A stretch of DNA of 24,477 bases from a virus. Made by a program: the position numbers and the translations under genes. Under the pieces are notes generated by a model. That model saw only the letters and a list, made by a program, of their open reading frames with translations. It was not told the origin of the DNA and ran no database searches. How positions within the stretch are numbered: position 1 is the stretch's first letter; each line of letters begins with the position of its first letter. This document shows, piece after piece, positions 1,269 to 24,477 of this stretch. The DNA lies in the IMG/VR virus record IMGVR_UViG_3300007960_000180, positions 1 through 24,477 of that record; one strand, given 5' to 3'.

Positions 1269-2419
1269 ACCTCTTGGGTTATTTCGTTCTCAAAAAGTAC
1301 CGTGAATTCTATTTCCTGCTGTGCTTCGCTGCTCGTGTCAATGTCAACACTCCCAGGCTCCACCGTCACCCGCCAAAGTTTGCTATCAATTTCCATATAC
1401 ACCTCCGGAGATATAAACATATTGCGCACCCAGTCGGCGGTCGTCGCGTCCATAACTTCCAAAACCTTGTATTTGATTTCGCTCACAATGCCGGTTTTCA
1501 CAATACCGGGCAGGTCGCTATCTGTCGGTATCGGCTGGTTAATTTCCCCGATCTCGCCGCCGTGGGTGTGGATCTTGGTAATTTGGCCCTCAAACGTGTA
1601 TTGATCCACCCCGCCCAGGCTGTTCATCCAGTACATACGCTTTGCATGCGCGCACCGGCGCACAATATCGAAGCGCCACGGCTCACTGACTACTGTGCCG
1701 CTGTTGGCAAGTTCTACCGTGTAGTAAGAAACCCCGGCAAAATCATAGGCTAAATTAGCCGTCCCGCCGTCCAGCACTTCCATTTTAGGATCTGCTCCAA
1801 CGCCTATAACGGGAACGGTGGCCGATGTGGTTTGACTTCCGGCGCTATCATATAGCTTAAAAAGATACTGGTTCCAACCTTTGCGCGCCGAACACAGGGC
1901 CGCCGGTTCGCTTGTCCCGATCTTTTGCGCGCTCGGTCCATCGGTAAGCCATTTAAATTTGCCACTGCCCTGGTAATAATAAGCGGTCATTGTGGTATCA
2001 CTGGCTGGGCGCTTGGCCGCAAACGCATAAAAGCCGCTGCTTGTTTCAGCAGCCGTACTTGTCACTAATAGCCCGGCGCTCGAACGGTATTCAAGGTAAA
2101 CGTCTACTTGGAAATTGGCGTAACAATCGGAAGCGTCAGAAGATGAGCCGCCGCTGGCGGCCGGAAATATGGAACTCGCCGCCGCCGCGTCTGTGCGCGG
2201 GGCCAGTGCTCTTTGTACCGGCGTCTGAACATCTATATTGAATGTGTAATCATTGCCCGCCTTCGTGGTGTATGGCTTTCGGTACGTTACTTGCAGGCTT
2301 CCATTAACCGTAACCTCTACCTTTGCGCTTTCTACATTTTCGCTGCTTGTCTGCATATTGACAAAAATTATCGGCCTGTACGCCGCGCTCAAATCGTTTG
2401 GGGTCGCTGTAAAACTCAT
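1265..2419 (-). CDS. Putative phage structural protein (384 aa)
   Basis: A 384-residue protein starting MSFTATPNDLSAAYRPIIFV. Its start overlaps the previous gene's stop by four bases (ATGA), and its own stop overlaps the GTG of the next gene, so it is tightly coupled in the structural operon. The sequence is beta-rich with an Ala/Ser-rich segment around residues 75-95 (DAAAASSIFPAASGGSSSDA). The C-terminal part (about 240-384) looks like a compact second domain. It has no signal peptide or transmembrane helix. I do not recognise a named family. Position next to another large Ser/Thr-rich protein supports a virion (tail or baseplate) role by inference only. Confidence 0.8.
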   Translation of the reverse strand: MSFTATPNDLSAAYRPIIFVNMQTSSENVESAKVEVTVNGSLQVTYRKPYTTKAGNDYTFNIDVQTPVQRALAPRTDAAAASSIFPAASGGSSSDASDCYANFQVDVYLEYRSSAGLLVTSTAAETSSGFYAFAAKRPASDTTMTAYYYQGSGKFKWLTDGPSAQKIGTSEPAALCSARKGWNQYLFKLYDSAGSQTTSATVPVIGVGADPKMEVLDGGTANLAYDFAGVSYYTVELANSGTVVSEPWRFDIVRRCAHAKRMYWMNSLGGVDQYTFEGQITKIHTHGGEIGEINQPIPTDSDLPGIVKTGIVSEIKYKVLEVMDATTADWVRNMFISPEVYMEIDSKLWRVTVEPGSVDIDTSSEAQQEIEFTVLFENEITQEV

Positions 2420-11531: not shown

Positions 11532-11848
11532 TTCACTTTCAATTTTTTCATCCACCAATCCGGGTCATTAGCCCGGTTTATTTCGTTGTTGGCGCGCTCG
11601 ATCTCAAGCCACTTGTTCGCGGCCATAACCAACCAGGCGGACAGGCTCAACCCCGCCTGCTCCGCCGCCGCGCTCATTTGCGCGTACTCGGTCGGGGTGA
11701 GCAGGATCTCTTTGCGCTTGGTTCGTTTCTCTTTCATATCGTTTTCTTCTTTTTCCGGCGTGCACGGCTCCCCGCAGTCGAAGCAATGGCCGTGGCCGGT
11801 GATTGGGTCGCGCTGCCAGATTGGCGCGCCGCAGCAGTTAGATTGCAT
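11528..11848 (-). CDS. Zinc-ribbon plus ribbon-helix-helix protein (106 aa)
   Basis: The N-terminus carries CC (5-6) and HCFDCGEPC (21-29), a small zinc ribbon. The second half, KEILLTPTEYAQMSAAAEQA followed by GLSLSAWLVMAANKW, is a strand-helix-turn-helix pattern of the Arc/MobC RHH type, so it probably binds DNA. An internal in-frame ATG at 11737 (MKEKRTKRKEI) is preceded by AACGAT, the same context as a real start at 14973, so a shorter RHH-only product may also be made. Overlaps: 11 bases with the gene before it, 4 with the gene after it. Likely regulatory, but the target is unknown. Confidence 0.75.
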   Translation of the reverse strand: MQSNCCGAPIWQRDPITGHGHCFDCGEPCTPEKEENDMKEKRTKRKEILLTPTEYAQMSAAAEQAGLSLSAWLVMAANKWLEIERANNEINRANDPDWWMKKLKVK

Positions 11849-12065
11849 TTTCTAATTTTTGTTCTTTACGCATACCCCGGCGCAAGTTTTTACATACTTT
11901 CCCGGTTCTTTGGGAGTAAGTGCTGTGGTAAAAAGCGTAGTCCGTTGAGAATTTTTCCCACCACGACCAGCAATATGGTTCCATTTCAACGCCAATTTCT
12001 TTCTCTCTTTCTTCTGTTTTAAATCCTAATTTTTCGGCTGCGGTTTTGATTTCTTGAATTGTCAT
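11838..12065 (-). CDS. Hypothetical 75-aa protein, first gene of the 12.1-kb promoter
   Basis: Starts MTIQEIKTAAEKLGFKTEER and has a Trp/Tyr-rich middle (EPYCWSWWEKFSTDYAFYH). No recognised family. The ATG (context AAAGAGATATG) lies about 20 bases after the predicted transcription start of the promoter at 12089-12119, making it the first gene of that transcript. It overlaps the zinc-ribbon/RHH gene by 11 bases. Confidence 0.72.
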   Translation of the reverse strand: MTIQEIKTAAEKLGFKTEEREKEIGVEMEPYCWSWWEKFSTDYAFYHSTYSQRTGKVCKNLRRGMRKEQKLENAI

Positions 12066-12137: not shown

Positions 12138-12149
12138 CGTTTGTAATCG
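12138..12149. promoter_or_regulatory. Upstream element CGTTTGTAATCG
   Basis: Matches CGTTTGTAAACG at 22697-22708 with one mismatch, and lies at the identical distance (18 bases between) upstream of the -33 box. Probably a binding site for an activator or switch protein. Confidence 0.65.
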
Positions 12150-15586: not shown

Positions 15587-16315
15587 TTATTGTTTTTTAT
15601 TTCTTGCTTCAACGGTTTTGTCAAAAAGCCACTGATTCATCCAGTATTGTGTGTACTCGTCGTAATCCATGTCAATGCACGCCCGGTCGTAGTCATCACT
15701 CACCGCCTGCGCCAACTTGCGCCCCAATTCCTTTTCATCTATGCCGTAGTACTGCGCGTATTGAGCCACCGAACGAAAAACCGGCTTAGGTTCCTTTTCC
15801 GGGCGTGCGTCCTTCCACCGTTCCGCAATGGCTTGTAGTATGTTGGTAGCGGCCTGTTCCCCGGCCATCTTGAACCGGCTTGCCTTCTGCGCGTTGTATG
15901 CTTCGGCCTCGTTCATCCGTTCGTCGGTGTATTGGTTGAGCGCCTGCATAATCACACCGCCGTCGATCCGGTCATATACCTTGCCATACAATCCTATTTT
16001 GAACTTCTCCGCGAATAGGCGCAGATCGGAGACTTTGAGATAGTAGAAGTTCTTTAAAATCATATCGACAAGCATCTTAATCTGGATTTCAGTCATCCCA
16101 TTCTTTACGTTGAAAAACTGTTCGATGTCGGCAAGCATGATCGAAATGTACGCGCTTGCCGCCTGCTTGCCCTGATCCCGCTTTACTACCGAAAGGGCAG
16201 AACTTCCGCACTCAAAAACATCCTGGTAATTTACCGGCGTCAGTTGCTCGAATGCCTTACTCGGCGAAGCTGGCAATAACGCGGGCGTACTTATCGGCAA
16301 GCTGTTGCTCTTCAT
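15587..16315 (-). CDS. Replication-associated phage protein (242 aa)
   Basis: Starts MKSNSLPISTPALLPASPSK. A helical protein with VKNGMTEIQIKMLVDMILKN, LYGKVYDRIDGGVIMQALNQ and a long coiled segment rich in Glu/Ala/Lys (about 125-170). The YGKVYDRIDG block recurs, from memory, in an uncharacterised family common in Bacteroidetes mobile elements. Its first 59 bases overlap the replication initiator-like gene; no other in-frame ATG occurs before residue 59. Position between initiator-like and DnaA-like genes suggests a helicase-loader or accessory role, unproven. Confidence 0.82.
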   Translation of the reverse strand: MKSNSLPISTPALLPASPSKAFEQLTPVNYQDVFECGSSALSVVKRDQGKQAASAYISIMLADIEQFFNVKNGMTEIQIKMLVDMILKNFYYLKVSDLRLFAEKFKIGLYGKVYDRIDGGVIMQALNQYTDERMNEAEAYNAQKASRFKMAGEQAATNILQAIAERWKDARPEKEPKPVFRSVAQYAQYYGIDEKELGRKLAQAVSDDYDRACIDMDYDEYTQYWMNQWLFDKTVEARNKKQ

Positions 16316-17141
16316 TGTGCTGCTGTTTTAGTAGTTGGATAATATTAAGAAATTTGCCATTGAAGATGTCCGGCGTAAAATTGGTGTGGTACCAAGCATC
16401 GCCCTTCTGAATGAGCATATCCAGGAACAGGCCGAAGTTGTTGCATATGGCTGCGTCGCTGACCTCCGCCCCTTGCGCCTCGATGCGTGCGGCAAGTTTC
16501 TCGGCTAGGTCTTTGAGATGCTTGAAGAACTTTGCGTCTTGGGTCGGCTTTTCTCTATGCAGGCGTTCGTGGCGCTCCGCCCATACTTCCCACATCAGGA
16601 ATGGAAGGCCCGGTGCTTTTTCTTTTTTTGGCGCAACTTTTTTTCTTTTTTCATTTTGGATTTTAGGGGTAATGATTTTTTCAGGCGCGGCGTTAGCCGC
16701 TATATCTCTTTGAGTATTCTTTGTAGTACTCTTATGTGTATTCTCTGTAATAGCACCGCCTTTTTGGCGTCTACTGTCCCGCCCTTTTGGCGTTCCTTGC
16801 GCCGCCTTTTGGGCGGCGCTAGCTTCGCCCAATTGGGCGAACAAGTCCGATAAATCGAAGTCGTAAAACGTTCGGCGCGGCAATCCTTCCAATGTTATAT
16901 TCATAAATGAATTACCCTTTAATGCGTTCTTTGCGCCCCGAAGTTCTTTTTCAGTTAGTCGGGTTTCTTCCATTATTTCGGAATCCGATTTGTAAAACTT
17001 TCGACCGCCGCACGCAGAGTACCAATAAAGCAATTGGCTCAGTAATATCGCCGCTGTTGTGCTGCCGGTCAAATCTCTGTACACAGGGTAATAAGCGATA
17101 GGTTTCTGATGCAGTTGTAACATCACATTCTTTACATTCAT
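16257..17141 (-). CDS. Phage replication initiator-like protein (winged-helix N-terminus)
   Basis: A 294-residue protein. Residues 1-95 (MNVKNVMLQLHQKPIAYYPV, TAAILLSQLLYWYSACGGRK, DSEIMEETRLTEKELRGAKN) look like the winged-helix domain of phage replisome organisers. A low-complexity linker rich in Gln, Thr, Lys (about 100-175, with QKGG, TTKNTQRD, KKVAPKKEK) separates it from a helical C-terminal part with PFLMWEVWAERHE and FNGKFLNIIQLLK. It would bind the origin and recruit the helicase. The linker DNA contains several imperfect repeats of CTTTTTGGCG type around 16755-16825, a possible origin, but this is only a suggestion. Confidence 0.82.
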   Translation of the reverse strand: MNVKNVMLQLHQKPIAYYPVYRDLTGSTTAAILLSQLLYWYSACGGRKFYKSDSEIMEETRLTEKELRGAKNALKGNSFMNITLEGLPRRTFYDFDLSDLFAQLGEASAAQKAAQGTPKGRDSRRQKGGAITENTHKSTTKNTQRDIAANAAPEKIITPKIQNEKRKKVAPKKEKAPGLPFLMWEVWAERHERLHREKPTQDAKFFKHLKDLAEKLAARIEAQGAEVSDAAICNNFGLFLDMLIQKGDAWYHTNFTPDIFNGKFLNIIQLLKQQHNEEQQLADKYARVIASFAE

Positions 17142-20590: not shown

Positions 20591-21019
20591 CTAAATGTAT
20601 TCTCTATTTCCGTATCGTTGTAGCTGCTGTTCCATGCTTAGCAGCTTTTCTGTTTCGTTGGGCTCCGGTAGATATATATTCAAGTCTCGTGCGGCGTGGT
20701 TCCGAAACATCTCAATGGCGGTTGTCATTTCGCCGGTGTCTAGATCGGAAGAACTGCGGTAGATAACGCGGGAGTTTTTCACTCGCTCGAAAACAGATCG
20801 GCAAATATCCCGCTTCCAGATATCCTGCTTTACCTCTTCCAGCGTGTAGCCGGTTTCTAATCCGTACCAGCTAAGAATAAGATGAAGGTAAGCGTTTTGG
20901 TTATTGGTTCGCTTGTACCGCTTTTCTTTCAATACAACCCGCTTGCCTTTTGCCTTCAGGTATGCGGCGCGCTGATCGAAGCGCGCCTGATCTTCCGGTA
21001 TGCTTAGGTCGTAGGTCAT
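20591..21019 (-). CDS. NinB-like recombination protein (putative)
   Basis: A 142-residue basic protein starting MTYDLSIPEDQARFDQRAAY. The core VLKEKRYKRTNNQNAYLHLI followed by LSWYGLETGYTLEEVKQDIW is the R-(T/S)-x-x-QN-x-(Y/R/W)-L pattern seen in NinB/Orf-type phage recombination proteins, which bind single-stranded DNA and help annealing. Similarity is from pattern only. ATG overlaps the stop of the putative annealing protein as TAATG, which strengthens a recombination module. Confidence 0.8.
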   Translation of the reverse strand: MTYDLSIPEDQARFDQRAAYLKAKGKRVVLKEKRYKRTNNQNAYLHLILSWYGLETGYTLEEVKQDIWKRDICRSVFERVKNSRVIYRSSSDLDTGEMTTAIEMFRNHAARDLNIYLPEPNETEKLLSMEQQLQRYGNREYI

Positions 21020-21663
21020 TAATAGCTACGTTCATTAATTCGCTTGATGGCCGCTTTTGCGGCGTTGCGTATCTCCTTGTCATTTTTCAGTAGCGTCGCG
21101 GCCTTGCCAAGTTCAGTAACTGTTATAACATCCTCGCAAAGCCCAAAGGCACTGATCAGGATACGCTTGTATTCATTGTATAGAACCTCGTTCGTGTCGT
21201 TCTCCGCTACTACGGTGTCCATTTCTTCGGCGGGCGTAGCCTCATAGCCGGAAGCTTGCAGAATCCAGGCAAGCAGCACGCGGAACGCCTTGCCTACGGC
21301 GCGGGTCTGCGCCATGCTTGCAATGGCGTATTCGTCAAAATATTGCTTTTTCTTTTCCTTGTTGGAGCAGAAAGCAAAGGCCCGGCTAATTACTTCCCCA
21401 TTGCGGCTGTCAATGATCTCGACCTCCGCCCGGTACTTGTATTCGCCATTCTTGCTAATGTCGTCGCAGGATACGACGCGAGGAAACAGGCCAACCAACG
21501 CCCCAGCGTACTGCCAGGCCTCGACCATTGGGTAATCCTTACCGCCGATGTTGGCCGTCAGGCGGCGTGCGCTAACGTGCTGCCGGATCTGGTTGGCAAG
21601 GTGGTCCACGTTCGCCGGTTGGTTGAAGTTCTGAAAGGTAATGATTTGCTTTTCGTCTGACAT
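21019..21663 (-). CDS. Putative single-strand annealing protein (ERF/Rad52-like)
   Basis: A 214-residue protein starting MSDEKQIITFQNFNQPANVD. The middle segment YKYRAEVEIIDSRNGEVISR followed by AFAFCSNKEKKK and YAIASMAQTRAVGKAFRVLL then AWILQASGYEATPAEEM (about 85-148) resembles phage annealing-type proteins with the conserved SMAQTRA..KA.R...GYE.TPAEEM stretch. The C-terminus is a helical region rich in Lys. It would bind and anneal DNA strands during phage recombination. I am confident of the conserved block, less of the family name. Confidence 0.85.
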   Translation of the reverse strand: MSDEKQIITFQNFNQPANVDHLANQIRQHVSARRLTANIGGKDYPMVEAWQYAGALVGLFPRVVSCDDISKNGEYKYRAEVEIIDSRNGEVISRAFAFCSNKEKKKQYFDEYAIASMAQTRAVGKAFRVLLAWILQASGYEATPAEEMDTVVAENDTNEVLYNEYKRILISAFGLCEDVITVTELGKAATLLKNDKEIRNAAKAAIKRINERSY

Positions 21664-21667
21664 TGTA

Positions 21668-21967
21668 TTATCTTTGCAGCTTAAATAATTGCGAATTTTT
21701 CACGGGCCTGCATTGGCCCTTTTTTATTTTCTCCTCTGCGGCTTCGTTCGCATCCCAATACCACACCCCACCTTTGCCGCATTTTAGTTTTACATTGTAG
21801 TTGCTTAGCCAGACCTTGGCCCCGTCGATCAGGAACATGTAAGATATGTAATCGTCTGGAATCGGCCCCCGCCACTTGTGCGGGTCGGGGATGCCTGTCC
21901 ATTCGATTGTGCCTTCGTACACGTCGCCGGAGGGGGTTACTAGTGTGTGCAGCGTTTTCTTGTTCAT
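21668..21967 (-). CDS. Hypothetical 99-aa protein
   Basis: Starts MNKKTLHTLVTPSGDVYEGT. Beta-rich and aromatic, with IEWTGIPDPHKWRGPIPDDY, a YMFLIDGAKVWLSNYNV strand pair and a KCGKGGVWYWDANEAA turn. No family recognised. It overlaps the previous gene by ATGA and ends 4 bases before the start of the annealing-protein gene. A second open frame on the same strand (21681-21974) is only a shadow. Confidence 0.75.
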   Translation of the reverse strand: MNKKTLHTLVTPSGDVYEGTIEWTGIPDPHKWRGPIPDDYISYMFLIDGAKVWLSNYNVKLKCGKGGVWYWDANEAAEEKIKKGQCRPVKNSQLFKLQR

Positions 21968-22269
21968 AGTGCAAAAATTTCTGGAATAGGTTGATCGGAG
22001 CAGGTAAGGGAAGCGATTTGCTCCGGAAAGTCTTGGTGGGCTTTTTCGATCAGGTCGAAAGCGTATTTTTTTACAGCAGCATAAAACAACTTCGTTTTAT
22101 ATGCGCCGTTCACTTTTGCATCCGTTACGCGGCGATGGCCGAATGTTTGAAGTATCCAACTAATCGGCAAGTCTGCGGAGTAATCCGTATTGCCTTCGCG
22201 CCATTCGATGCGAACACTTTTAATAGGCGTGTCCTGTACTTTGATGTTTTTTAATTGCGAATTTTTCAT
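21964..22269 (-). CDS. Hypothetical 101-aa protein
   Basis: Starts MKNSQLKNIKVQDTPIKSVR. The N-terminal 45 residues read as beta-strands (VRIEWREGNTDYSADLP), followed by a helical part (KTKLFYAAVKKYAFDLIEKA). No recognised family. Its ATG lies two bases after the stop of the small RHH gene, and its stop overlaps the next ATG. Confidence 0.75.
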   Translation of the reverse strand: MKNSQLKNIKVQDTPIKSVRIEWREGNTDYSADLPISWILQTFGHRRVTDAKVNGAYKTKLFYAAVKKYAFDLIEKAHQDFPEQIASLTCSDQPIPEIFAL

Positions 22270-22271
22270 AA

Positions 22272-22403
22272 TTATTTTTTTTTAAGGTATTCAGTAATCG
22301 CCAAGCGAACCAGCGCCGCAAGGCTATTTAAATTCATTTCTTCCGCCTTTGCTCTCGCTTTTTCAAGCAATTCGGAAGGTATGTAAAAATTAATTCGCTT
22401 CAT
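22272..22403 (-). CDS. 43-aa ribbon-helix-helix regulator
   Basis: A complete short gene reading MKRINFYIPSELLEKARAKA, then EEMNLNSLAALVRLAITEYL and KKK. A first beta-strand (INFYIP), helix, turn (NLNS) and second helix are the CopG/Arc RHH pattern, and the size is that of minimal RHH dimers. It would bind a palindromic operator as dimers. It lies in the leftward early operon just after the 70-aa gene, close to the divergent control region with two operator types, so autoregulation is likely but unproven. Confidence 0.8.
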   Translation of the reverse strand: MKRINFYIPSELLEKARAKAEEMNLNSLAALVRLAITEYLKKK

Positions 22404-22413
22404 CTTGCTTATT

Positions 22414-22626
22414 TTACTTTATAAAACTTTCTTCCGTTGCCGGTTCATCTATCCAGATATAAGCTGAATACCCCCTCACGCCGTTCATCCCTTGAACGTG
22501 CATATTATTCTCTAATGCCCACTTGGCAACCTCAACGTCTCTAGTTTGGAATATTCCGCAGTCTTTAGTCTGCGAAGTGGCGCTGTTTGCGCTCATTAGT
22601 TTAATTATTTTTTGCTCTCTAGTCAT
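22414..22626 (-). CDS. Hypothetical 70-aa protein, first gene of the leftward operon
   Basis: ATG 22626 (MTREQKIIKLMSANSATSQT) lies just downstream of the leftward promoter. A longer in-frame start at 22767 would run through the promoter and operators and gives an unlikely Cys/Tyr-rich N-terminus, so it is rejected. The rest reads KDCGIFQTRDVEVAKWALEN and ends WIDEPATEESFIK. No family recognised. Confidence 0.72.
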   Translation of the reverse strand: MTREQKIIKLMSANSATSQTKDCGIFQTRDVEVAKWALENNMHVQGMNGVRGYSAYIWIDEPATEESFIK

Positions 22627-22647
22627 TTTTTTCTGTTTTGTTCGGTA

Positions 22648-22678
22648 CGAATATACATACATTATACATACAAAACAA
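22648..22678 (-). promoter_or_regulatory. Leftward early promoter
   Basis: On the minus strand TTG (22678-22676) is followed after exactly 20 bases by TATATTCG (22655-22648), one mismatch from TAnnTTTG. Transcription would begin near 22642 and enter the gene at 22626. Spacing is identical to the promoter at 12089-12119. Confidence 0.75.
22653..22671. promoter_or_regulatory. 19-bp operator-like element, degenerate copy
   Basis: ATACATACATTATACATAC is 15/19 identical to the perfect palindrome at 12094-12112, and overlaps the first three bases of the -7 box in the same way. The changes are all transitions (G to A, T to C). Confidence 0.7.
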
Positions 22679-22696
22679 GCGCAAACCAAACTTAGT

Positions 22697-22726
22697 CGTT
22701 TGTAAACGCTTATGCATTTGTAAACG
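22697..22726. promoter_or_regulatory. Paired operators CGTTTGTAAACG and CATTTGTAAACG
   Basis: CGTTTGTAAACG (22697-22708) has 5-base inverted arms; CATTTGTAAACG (22715-22726) differs by one base and starts 18 bases further on. The second contains the TTTG -33 box of the rightward promoter. The first lies 18 bases upstream of the leftward -33 box. Confidence 0.75.
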
Positions 22727-22748
22727 GCTATATTTATACATATATTTG
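22717..22748 (+). promoter_or_regulatory. Rightward promoter
   Basis: TTTG (22717-22720), 20 bases, then TATATTTG (22741-22748): a perfect match to the Bacteroidetes consensus. Transcription would start near 22754, leaving a leader of about 12 bases before the ATG at 22766. Confidence 0.85.
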
Positions 22749-22765
22749 ACTTAAAATAAACATAC

Positions 22766-22900
22766 ATGCAAAAAGAAAATAAAAAGGCTCTATGGGTAGA
22801 TCCGGCAACTCATAGAGCTGCAAAGATCGAAGCCGCGAAAAAGGGCCTAACTATCGGTCAGCTTATCTCTTGGCTGATGGGCAAAACGAAAGAGCAATGA
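22766..22900 (+). CDS. 44-aa ribbon-helix-helix-like regulator
   Basis: A short gene reading MQKENKKALWVDPATHRAAK, then IEAAKKGLTIGQLISWLMGK and TKEQ. The beta-strand (KALWV), helix, turn (GLTI) and second helix are typical of small RHH antitoxin or partition-type DNA binders. It is the first gene of the rightward operon, directly behind a strong promoter with paired operators, so it is the prime candidate for the switch repressor. Its stop overlaps the ATG of the next gene. Confidence 0.8.
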   Translation: MQKENKKALWVDPATHRAAKIEAAKKGLTIGQLISWLMGKTKEQ

Positions 22901-23094
22901 TGATACTAGCATACCTGTTGTTCGGTGCGGTGTTCGCGGCCGTAATCGAAAAGGCAAGCAGGAAAGGCGATCCCGATTATGTAGCCTTTTTGTTCCTGGC
23001 TGCTTTTTGGCCTTTTGTGATGATCCTGTTTTTATTTTTTTACTTCACTGATCTATTAGCCGATGAGCGAGGGGGAGATGATAGCGAACTTTAA
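22897..23094 (+). CDS. Small membrane protein with two predicted helices (65 aa)
   Basis: ATG 22897 (MMILAYLLFGAVFAAVIEKA) overlaps the RHH stop as ATGA and is chosen over an earlier in-frame ATG. Two hydrophobic stretches (about 1-17 and 28-51, YVAFLFLAAFWPFVMILFLF) are separated by a short polar loop; the C-terminus is acidic (DERGGDDSEL). Size and layout are compatible with a holin or a superinfection-exclusion-type membrane protein, but nothing proves either. Confidence 0.8.
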   Translation: MMILAYLLFGAVFAAVIEKASRKGDPDYVAFLFLAAFWPFVMILFLFFYFTDLLADERGGDDSEL

Positions 23095-23473
23095 TACGGC
23101 TCCGCCGCCGGGGATCTGGATTACCTGGGCATGGTTGGGCGTATGCTTCCTTGCTAGTGCCGTTTTAATCGTTTTAGACGCGCTTTTGCGGTCGCGGGTG
23201 ATACTCGGTATTAATCTGGTACAAAACGCGAACAGGCGCGCCCAGGAAGCCGAGGACGAAATAATACGCCTTGAGAGCAAGGTTGAAGCCAAGGACATAG
23301 AAATACTCTACTTGCGCAACGAAAACGAAACCCTCCGCGAATTGGCCCGGCGCAAAGGATCGTACACGGTCCGGGACGCTGATCCGGCACAACAAAGCGA
23401 AGGGCGCCTTTGGGATGAAGAAGCCGAAGAGGCTGAAGGGTACGAATTTAACTATCGAATTAACATAAAATAG
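23063..23473 (+). CDS. Membrane-anchored coiled-coil protein (136 aa)
   Basis: One transmembrane segment (about 18-41, WITWAWLGVCFLASAVLIVL) near the N-terminus is followed by a coiled coil (about 55-95, NRRAQEAEDEIIRLESKVEA onward to NENETLREL) and an acidic tail (EEAEEAEGYEF). This single-helix plus coiled-coil form is seen in spanin-like or lysis-accessory proteins and in membrane-bound phage factors. Start ATG 23063 overlaps the previous gene by 32 bases; ATG 23078 is an alternative. Confidence 0.78.
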   Translation: MSEGEMIANFNTAPPPGIWITWAWLGVCFLASAVLIVLDALLRSRVILGINLVQNANRRAQEAEDEIIRLESKVEAKDIEILYLRNENETLRELARRKGSYTVRDADPAQQSEGRLWDEEAEEAEGYEFNYRINIK

Positions 23474-23479
23474 GATGAT

Positions 23480-23848
23480 ATGAATATCACACAAGCCGAA
23501 GAACGATTTTTTTACCTGATCCAACGCGGGAAGCCGGTCAACAACGAAACAACAAATTTGGCGAAGTGCGGACGCGCTCTTTCTACTGTCATTAGAAAAA
23601 TGGGGTATGTTGACAAAAATGGATATTACACAGGCGCGGTACCTATCCCGGATGAATTAAAATTAGAAATTAAATCAAATTTCATCAACTATAACAACCG
23701 GCACAAAAAAGCGCCAAAAGTTAGCGATCAACACGCGCCGGACAAATCAACTGACGAATATTTAATTGCGCGCCTTAAATATATAACCGATCAACTCCGG
23801 GCGCGTGGCTATGACATCGAAGAAATCAAAATTACTTATACGATATAA
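23480..23848 (+). CDS. Hypothetical 122-aa protein
   Basis: Starts MNITQAEERFFYLIQRGKPV. A helix-rich N-terminus with NLAKCGRALSTVIRKMGYVD then KNGYYTG resembles a small winged-helix-like DNA-binding form, but this is weak. The C-terminus is a mixed charged region. The leader is ATAGGATGAT before ATG, shared with other genes here. Confidence 0.75.
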   Translation: MNITQAEERFFYLIQRGKPVNNETTNLAKCGRALSTVIRKMGYVDKNGYYTGAVPIPDELKLEIKSNFINYNNRHKKAPKVSDQHAPDKSTDEYLIARLKYITDQLRARGYDIEEIKITYTI

Positions 23849-23861
23849 AAAATAGGATGAT

Positions 23862-24110
23862 ATGACAAAGGAAGAAGCACAACGCCAATACGGAGAAATC
23901 GAACTAACATTTAAAGAATATTATTCGTACTCCGTGACGTTTGAAGCAACGCTGCCGGATGGCGTTGTAATTGGGAAGCACCTCTCCGGGCATGATGTCG
24001 CCAATAGGCATTTTCGCCCTGGGCAAACGACTACTATTTGCGAGCCTGAGCCAGATTGGGGGATCTTTTACGTGTTCAAGGGGGGCAAAAAATATGACTT
24101 TGAATTATAA
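23862..24110 (+). CDS. Hypothetical 82-aa protein
   Basis: Starts MTKEEAQRQYGEIELTFKEY and is beta-rich (YYSYSVTFEATLPDGVVIGK; TTTICEPEPDWGIFYVFKGG). No family recognised. It has the shared leader ATAGGATGAT and lies 13 bases after the previous stop. Confidence 0.72.
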   Translation: MTKEEAQRQYGEIELTFKEYYSYSVTFEATLPDGVVIGKHLSGHDVANRHFRPGQTTTICEPEPDWGIFYVFKGGKKYDFEL

Positions 24111-24119
24111 ATGGATGAT

Positions 24120-24477
24120 ATGAAAAACAAAGACGTAATTCAGCAGGACAACCAGGCATTTATTGCCGAGATCCTGGATAAAAGAGAAATTCGCAGGGAC
24201 GAAATCAGAAACAAGCGCCGCCGGGTAAAAACGTTCCGGTCAGTAACTTATATTTTTCAGGCGCTTTCCCTGCTAACTGCTACATACTTTATTTATCACT
24301 ACGCGAAAGATTACGCCGGGTTTTACGTGGCCCTGGTGTGGTCGGTCGGGGTCTTGCTCCTGTTTGTTATCGAAGCCGCCAAGCGGTTTTCTATCCTGGA
24401 AACGGCGCAAGGATATTATAACCCCGAGGACCGGCATAAGACCCGCTGGACGCCTGTTATTATTATTGCCATCGGAT
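24120..24477 (+). CDS. Membrane protein, 3' end outside the window
   Basis: ATG 24120 (MKNKDVIQQDNQAFIAEILD) is preceded by GGATGAT. The ATG nine bases earlier (MDD) is in frame but consists of the shared leader, so the later start is preferred. After a strongly basic stretch (RNKRRRVK) come hydrophobic segments at about 41-60 (SVTYIFQALSLLTATYFIYH), 68-85 and, at the edge, VIIIAIG. At least 119 residues are visible. No family recognised; a cytoplasmic N-terminus is likely from the positive charges. Confidence 0.8.
   Translation, partial: MKNKDVIQQDNQAFIAEILDKREIRRDEIRNKRRRVKTFRSVTYIFQALSLLTATYFIYHYAKDYAGFYVALVWSVGVLLLFVIEAAKRFSILETAQGYYNPEDRHKTRWTPVIIIAIG

Follow-up and report, generated by a model that had tools for sequence, protein, structure and literature searches.

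In phage P22, Mnt acts as a repressor at the ant promoter and as an activator at its own, and this is the logic that an earlier note had proposed for the region described here, with one bound protein silencing a rightward promoter and activating, or leaving on, a leftward one. Arc and Mnt are the ribbon-helix-helix (RHH) repressors of the P22 immI region, which has the antirepressor gene ant under its control and also contains the sar RNA (PMC2629481). The omega protein, which belongs to the same family, binds 7-bp repeats that adjoin one another and acts together with a ParA protein (PMC9499535). For the Riemerella phage RAP44, the integrase has been shown to be functional (PMC9745183). The consensus for Bacteroides promoters is TTTG near -33 and TAnnTTTG near -7 (PMC7366714). 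Control regions have so far been little characterised in Bacteroidota phages. We describe one such region, where about 650 bp (22272-22900) contain the promoters together with a candidate operator and two candidate regulators.

The DNA that was analysed, referred to as the window, is the whole of the IMG/VR record IMGVR_UViG_3300007960_000180 (positions 1-24,477; 24,477 nucleotides), which is classed as linear and is probably a fragment. From 22.6 kb down to position 1, nearly all of the called genes run leftward, and the rightward gene block starts at 22766; one weak rightward call (16335-16508) overlaps a leftward replication-gene frame (16257-17141). The terminase is nearest to that of Riemerella phages (about 47%), and together with the promoters it points to a Bacteroidota host for a tailed phage. 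The comparison set consisted of four phages (the window, L013, L014 and L099), three of which are close and all of which are known from fragment records. L013 and L014, retrieved via the helicase, are the close relatives, and L099 is a distant one that has nine proteins in common with the window, at 28-79%. A BLAST search with 22400-24477 against annotated phages gave no match, and a three-member alignment of RHH44, the first rightward gene product, matched only L013, L014 and, over a short stretch, L096 among the viral contigs. Most other loci retrieved by the helicase or by the 214-aa protein lack a homologous switch and carry other genes at the equivalent position. Scans for Rfam families and tRNAs gave no hits.

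Between 22648 and 22748 of the window there are two divergent promoters that match the Bacteroidota consensus (Table 1). The rightward promoter, PR, has an inferred start near 22752; its box positions are kept in L013 and L014, and in L099 it has a poor -7 box. The leftward promoter, PL, has an inferred start near 22645, and its two mismatches to TTTG-N20-TAnnTTTG in the window are replaced by an exact TTTG-N20-TATATTTG in L014. Promoter coordinates and the offsets to the inferred starts were measured by hand on the sequence. Sigma-70 matches in the region were no more frequent than in shuffles. The core block of PL (22650-22670, 21 bp) is identical in L099, and the 11-bp direct repeats in this promoter form a possible second operator. 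The PL block is the same in L099 although the counterpart there of RHH43, the leftward RHH protein, differs, so RNA polymerase may be the reason for the conservation of the block.

Table 1. Features of the divergent control region and the adjoining genes, in window coordinates
Feature	Position	Strand	Description
RHH43	22272-22403	-	43-aa CopG-like RHH protein; second leftward gene here, first in L013 and L014
70-aa non-RHH protein	22414-22626	-	First leftward gene, between PL and RHH43; in this window only
PL	22648-22679	-	-33 box CTTG (22679-22676), N20, -7 box TATATTCG (22655-22648)
Two 11-bp direct repeats	22652-22673		TATACATACAT and TATACATACAA; inside PL, part of the 21-bp block shared with L099
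Candidate operator copy 1	22691-22708	+	CTTAGTCGTTTGTAAACG; palindromic core CGTTTGTAAACG (22697-22708)
Candidate operator copy 2	22709-22726	+	CTTATGCATTTGTAAACG; core CATTTGTAAACG (22715-22726); includes the -33 TTTG of PR
PR	22717-22748	+	TTTG (22717-22720), N20, TATATTTG (22741-22748); exact consensus match
RHH44	22766-22900	+	44-aa omega/HicB-like RHH protein; first rightward gene
65-aa hydrophobic protein	22897-23094	+	84% in L013 and L014; no L099 counterpart
136-aa protein	23063-23473	+	Apparent membrane anchor and coiled coil; 88-90% in L013 and L014
122-aa protein	23480-23848	+	43% to a 123-aa L099 protein
82-aa protein	23862-24110	+	95% and 84% in L013 and L014
Large protein, N-terminal part	24120-24477	+	Probably a membrane protein; truncated by the record end; 54% to a 377-aa L099 protein

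A tandem 18-bp repeat (22691-22726), with adjacent units that are 83% identical, lies between the core elements of PL and PR. The core of copy 1 is a perfect 5+2+5 palindrome. The earlier note had placed one repeat copy over the rightward -33 box and the other upstream of the leftward promoter, and this is indeed the layout: the TTTG of PR falls inside copy 2, and copy 1 is 17 bp upstream of the PL -33 box. The repeat centres are near -32 and -50 for PR and near -58 and -76 for PL. When the intergenic region was shuffled with dinucleotides preserved, 11 of 20,000 shuffles contained a 5+2+5 palindrome with a second copy within 30 nt that matched it at 11/12 or better; if no palindrome was required, such a repeat was seen in 127 of 5,000. 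The whole intergenic region is kept in L013 and L014. Copy 1 is unchanged in both and exact over 17 of its 18 bp (22692-22708) in L099; copy 2 is looser, with one or two changes in L013 and L014 and the TTTG retained. L099 has a single repeat unit and no separate copy 2, which means that the tandem arrangement was either gained in the lineage of the window or lost in L099. In the comparison with L013 and L014, 2 of the 36 columns of the repeat vary, whereas at third codon positions the count is 20 of 44 for RHH44 and 63 of 136 for the 136-aa gene. The exact blocks common to the window and L099 measure 21 and 17 bp, and the longest word in common in any of 3,000 shuffle pairs was 15. The exact 12-mer core is present once in each of the four phage records, at this site only. 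The divergent promoters with a shared operator-like repeat that had been described are thus a real feature, conserved in L013 and L014 and in part in L099. A degenerate pattern of the double operator had one match, with three mismatches, when 395 genomes of the Bacteroides phylum were searched. A one-mismatch copy of the core, CGTTTGTAATCG at 12138-12149, was set aside, as five matches with two or fewer mismatches were found and 3.1 were expected; it sits in the gap upstream of a leftward gene (11838-12065) and may be there by chance.

RHH genes are found on both sides of the promoter region in all four phages. RHH43 belongs to the strand-helix-helix family by its Pfam match (RHH_1, 9.6e-6, above the cut-off; the NCBIfam ORF56 match, at 1.8e-4, is below it). 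RHH44 belongs to it through its L099 orthologue, RHH38, which scores above the cut-off for HicB and at 5.9e-6 for Omega_Repress; the window protein alone has a weak Pfam score (HicB, 0.044). The model of RHH44 has two helices (mean pLDDT 76) and no strand in the monomer, and none of the top structural matches (ParG, Rv0298, PutA and Arc) has an E value better than 0.36, which makes the similarity in fold no more than suggestive. All four phages have the RHH44 strand KKA[LI]WVDP without variation, as they do the operator core. Where this N-terminal strand aligns with omega it carries Ala and Trp, at positions that we take to be Thr and Arg in omega and to contact DNA there, so that DNA recognition by RHH44 would be unusual. 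A protein of the RHH44 family, FKILWVDPETHQKARILAAKQG, is also present in the G188 prophage (L194-L195; L191 1468-1689, minus strand, and 1701-2408, plus strand), opposite a CI-like repressor of the S24/HTH type and with a tyrosine integrase near the pair.

On the left side, the picture of RHH genes flanking the promoters holds for RHH43 and RHH44 themselves, but the first leftward gene of the window encodes a 70-aa protein that is not of this type. A protein search of viral contigs found no relative of it, and neither L013 nor L014 has one; in these two phages RHH43 starts directly at PL. L099 has two RHH genes and a short open frame at this place, and its RHH43 counterpart is 36% alike and differs in the DNA-contact strand, at likely DNA-contact positions. 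Left of RHH43, the window genes (20591-22403) match L099 (2730-4826) at 28-69%, and L013 (2136-4233) and L014 (1365-3459) have a different gene set that includes a YqaJ-like exonuclease. As the switch is common to all four phages but the left-hand genes differ, this suggests mosaic exchange around the switch. In other phages, a 67-aa protein that is RHH-like by eye (L004 4982-5185, L006 4316-4519) stands opposite small rightward genes, close to a homologue of the 214-aa protein.

The rightward cassette is complete in L099, where it encodes RHH38 and proteins of 93, 123 and 377 aa and is followed by convergent late genes. The 93-aa protein, with an apparent membrane segment and a coiled coil, resembles the 136-aa protein of the window in position and layout but has no BLAST match to it. 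The 377-aa protein has several hydrophobic helices and is probably a membrane protein; its model was set aside as too poor (mean pLDDT 50.5). Scans with Pfam, PHROGs and PADLOC assigned no function to the cassette proteins, and the membrane-protein cassette was not found in the 395 Bacteroides-phylum genomes, a set without a positive control.

These results are consistent with an early-control region of a tailed phage. PL would drive a long leftward operon with RHH43 and the genes for recombination, replication and packaging, and PR a short cassette with RHH44 and membrane proteins, perhaps for host takeover or exclusion. RHH44 would bind the palindromic repeats. With copy 2 over the PR -33 box and copy 1 just upstream, such binding would shut PR, which amounts to negative autoregulation, and from the positions near -58 and -76 of PL the bound protein would either not hinder PL or assist it. 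The 11-bp repeats in the PL core may allow RHH43 to adjust PL. We infer both the identity of the binding protein and the direction of the effect on each promoter. Repression by RHH44 of its own promoter through the repeats, with a site upstream of PL, is our best explanation, and we hold it with moderate confidence; it is favoured by the placement of the repeats, by the joint conservation of the repeat and the RHH44 strand and by the precedent in the family.

The earlier note went further and read the layout as a lysis-lysogeny or immunity switch. RHH43 and RHH44 would then be mutually opposed repressors and the cassette would represent the lysogenic state. Divergent promoters with shared operators are present at the sequence level, and two temperate arrangements speak for this reading: in RAP44 the module opposite the leftward operon runs rightward and encodes an S24-like protein and an integrase, and in the G188 Bacteroidota prophage the RHH44-family protein has the position of Cro, with the integrase beyond the opposing repressor. 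However, the divergent gene that faces the lytic operon here encodes an RHH protein and not an HTH/S24-type repressor. Neither a tyrosine integrase (PF00589) nor a serine resolvase (PF00239) was matched in the four fragment records, S24 (PF00717) and HTH_3 (PF01381) gave no match in G000, G002, G003 and G004, and the antirepressor, sought through its Bro-N domain (PF02498), gave none in the four records, while the controls were matched in each case. The complete cassette of L099 also lacks such a gene and runs into convergent late genes, and the failure to find the cassette in the 395 genomes, with no positive control, points the same way. As the records are fragments, absence is no proof, and the lysogeny reading is weakened by these searches. 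We regard lysogeny as unsupported and a true switch of this kind as decidedly doubtful. A decision region with two RHH proteins and no HTH repressor, in which the lytic operon is balanced against a membrane-protein cassette that changes the infected cell (through exclusion or a carrier-like state) without integration, is unlikely, if still worth bearing in mind. We are similarly sceptical of an antagonistic early switch in a virulent phage, where RHH44 would hold PR and RHH43 would hold PL and thereby time early and cassette expression. The presence of RHH genes to either side in each of the four phages fits this, as do the 11-bp repeats within the PL block shared with L099, but the low likeness of RHH43 in L099 extends to its DNA-contact strand, and the two leftward RHH genes of L099 make the pairing ambiguous.

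Type II toxin-antitoxin operons, too, typically begin with an RHH gene whose promoter is overlapped by a palindromic operator; RHH44 would then be the autoregulating antitoxin and one of the genes after it the toxin, and the HicB-like match of the RHH44 orthologue agrees with this. We nevertheless consider it very improbable, because the scans of the cassette, which cover known families, showed no toxin-like partner and the second gene (65 aa) is absent in L099. There may also be no switch, if PL and PR are ordinary promoters for the host polymerase and the repeat serves another protein of the host or the phage. RHH binding at the repeats is a prediction, and conservation of the PL block could reflect the polymerase alone; yet the 12-mer core is a palindrome that recurs, is conserved without change and overlaps the -33 box of PR, and this explanation seems improbable to us. 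The compact region and the relatives that mark the kept bases make binding and repression directly testable.

How does this locus compare with known systems? The best distant relative of RHH44 by sequence is omega of plasmid pSM19035 (ParB-pSM, RHH family), which also binds repeated DNA; here, in contrast, the units are of 18 bp with a 12-bp palindromic core and no ParA is seen beside RHH44. RHH43 is like the plasmid copy-control repressors CopG and ORF56 in size and fold, with a weak ORF56 match, whereas its locus is not one of plasmid copy control. RAP44 resembles the window in having a leftward NinB/YqaJ operon opposite a rightward module, and the two have only the terminase (47.6%) and NinB (38%) in common; RAP44 has an integrase and an S24-like protein, and the window cassette has neither. 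By analogy, P22 immI with Arc and Mnt would be the closest known arrangement, as both have two small RHH proteins, divergent promoters and an operator between them, with binding predicted in our case. They differ in that no Bro-N antirepressor was found here and that the operons are those of early replication and a membrane-protein cassette. The earlier note had stressed RHH proteins in place of Cro and CI; they do lie on both sides, but P22 immI already uses RHH repressors, so that control of this kind at divergent phage promoters has a precedent. Should both RHH proteins act at this locus, immI-style control would be extended to early control, and to a different group of phages.
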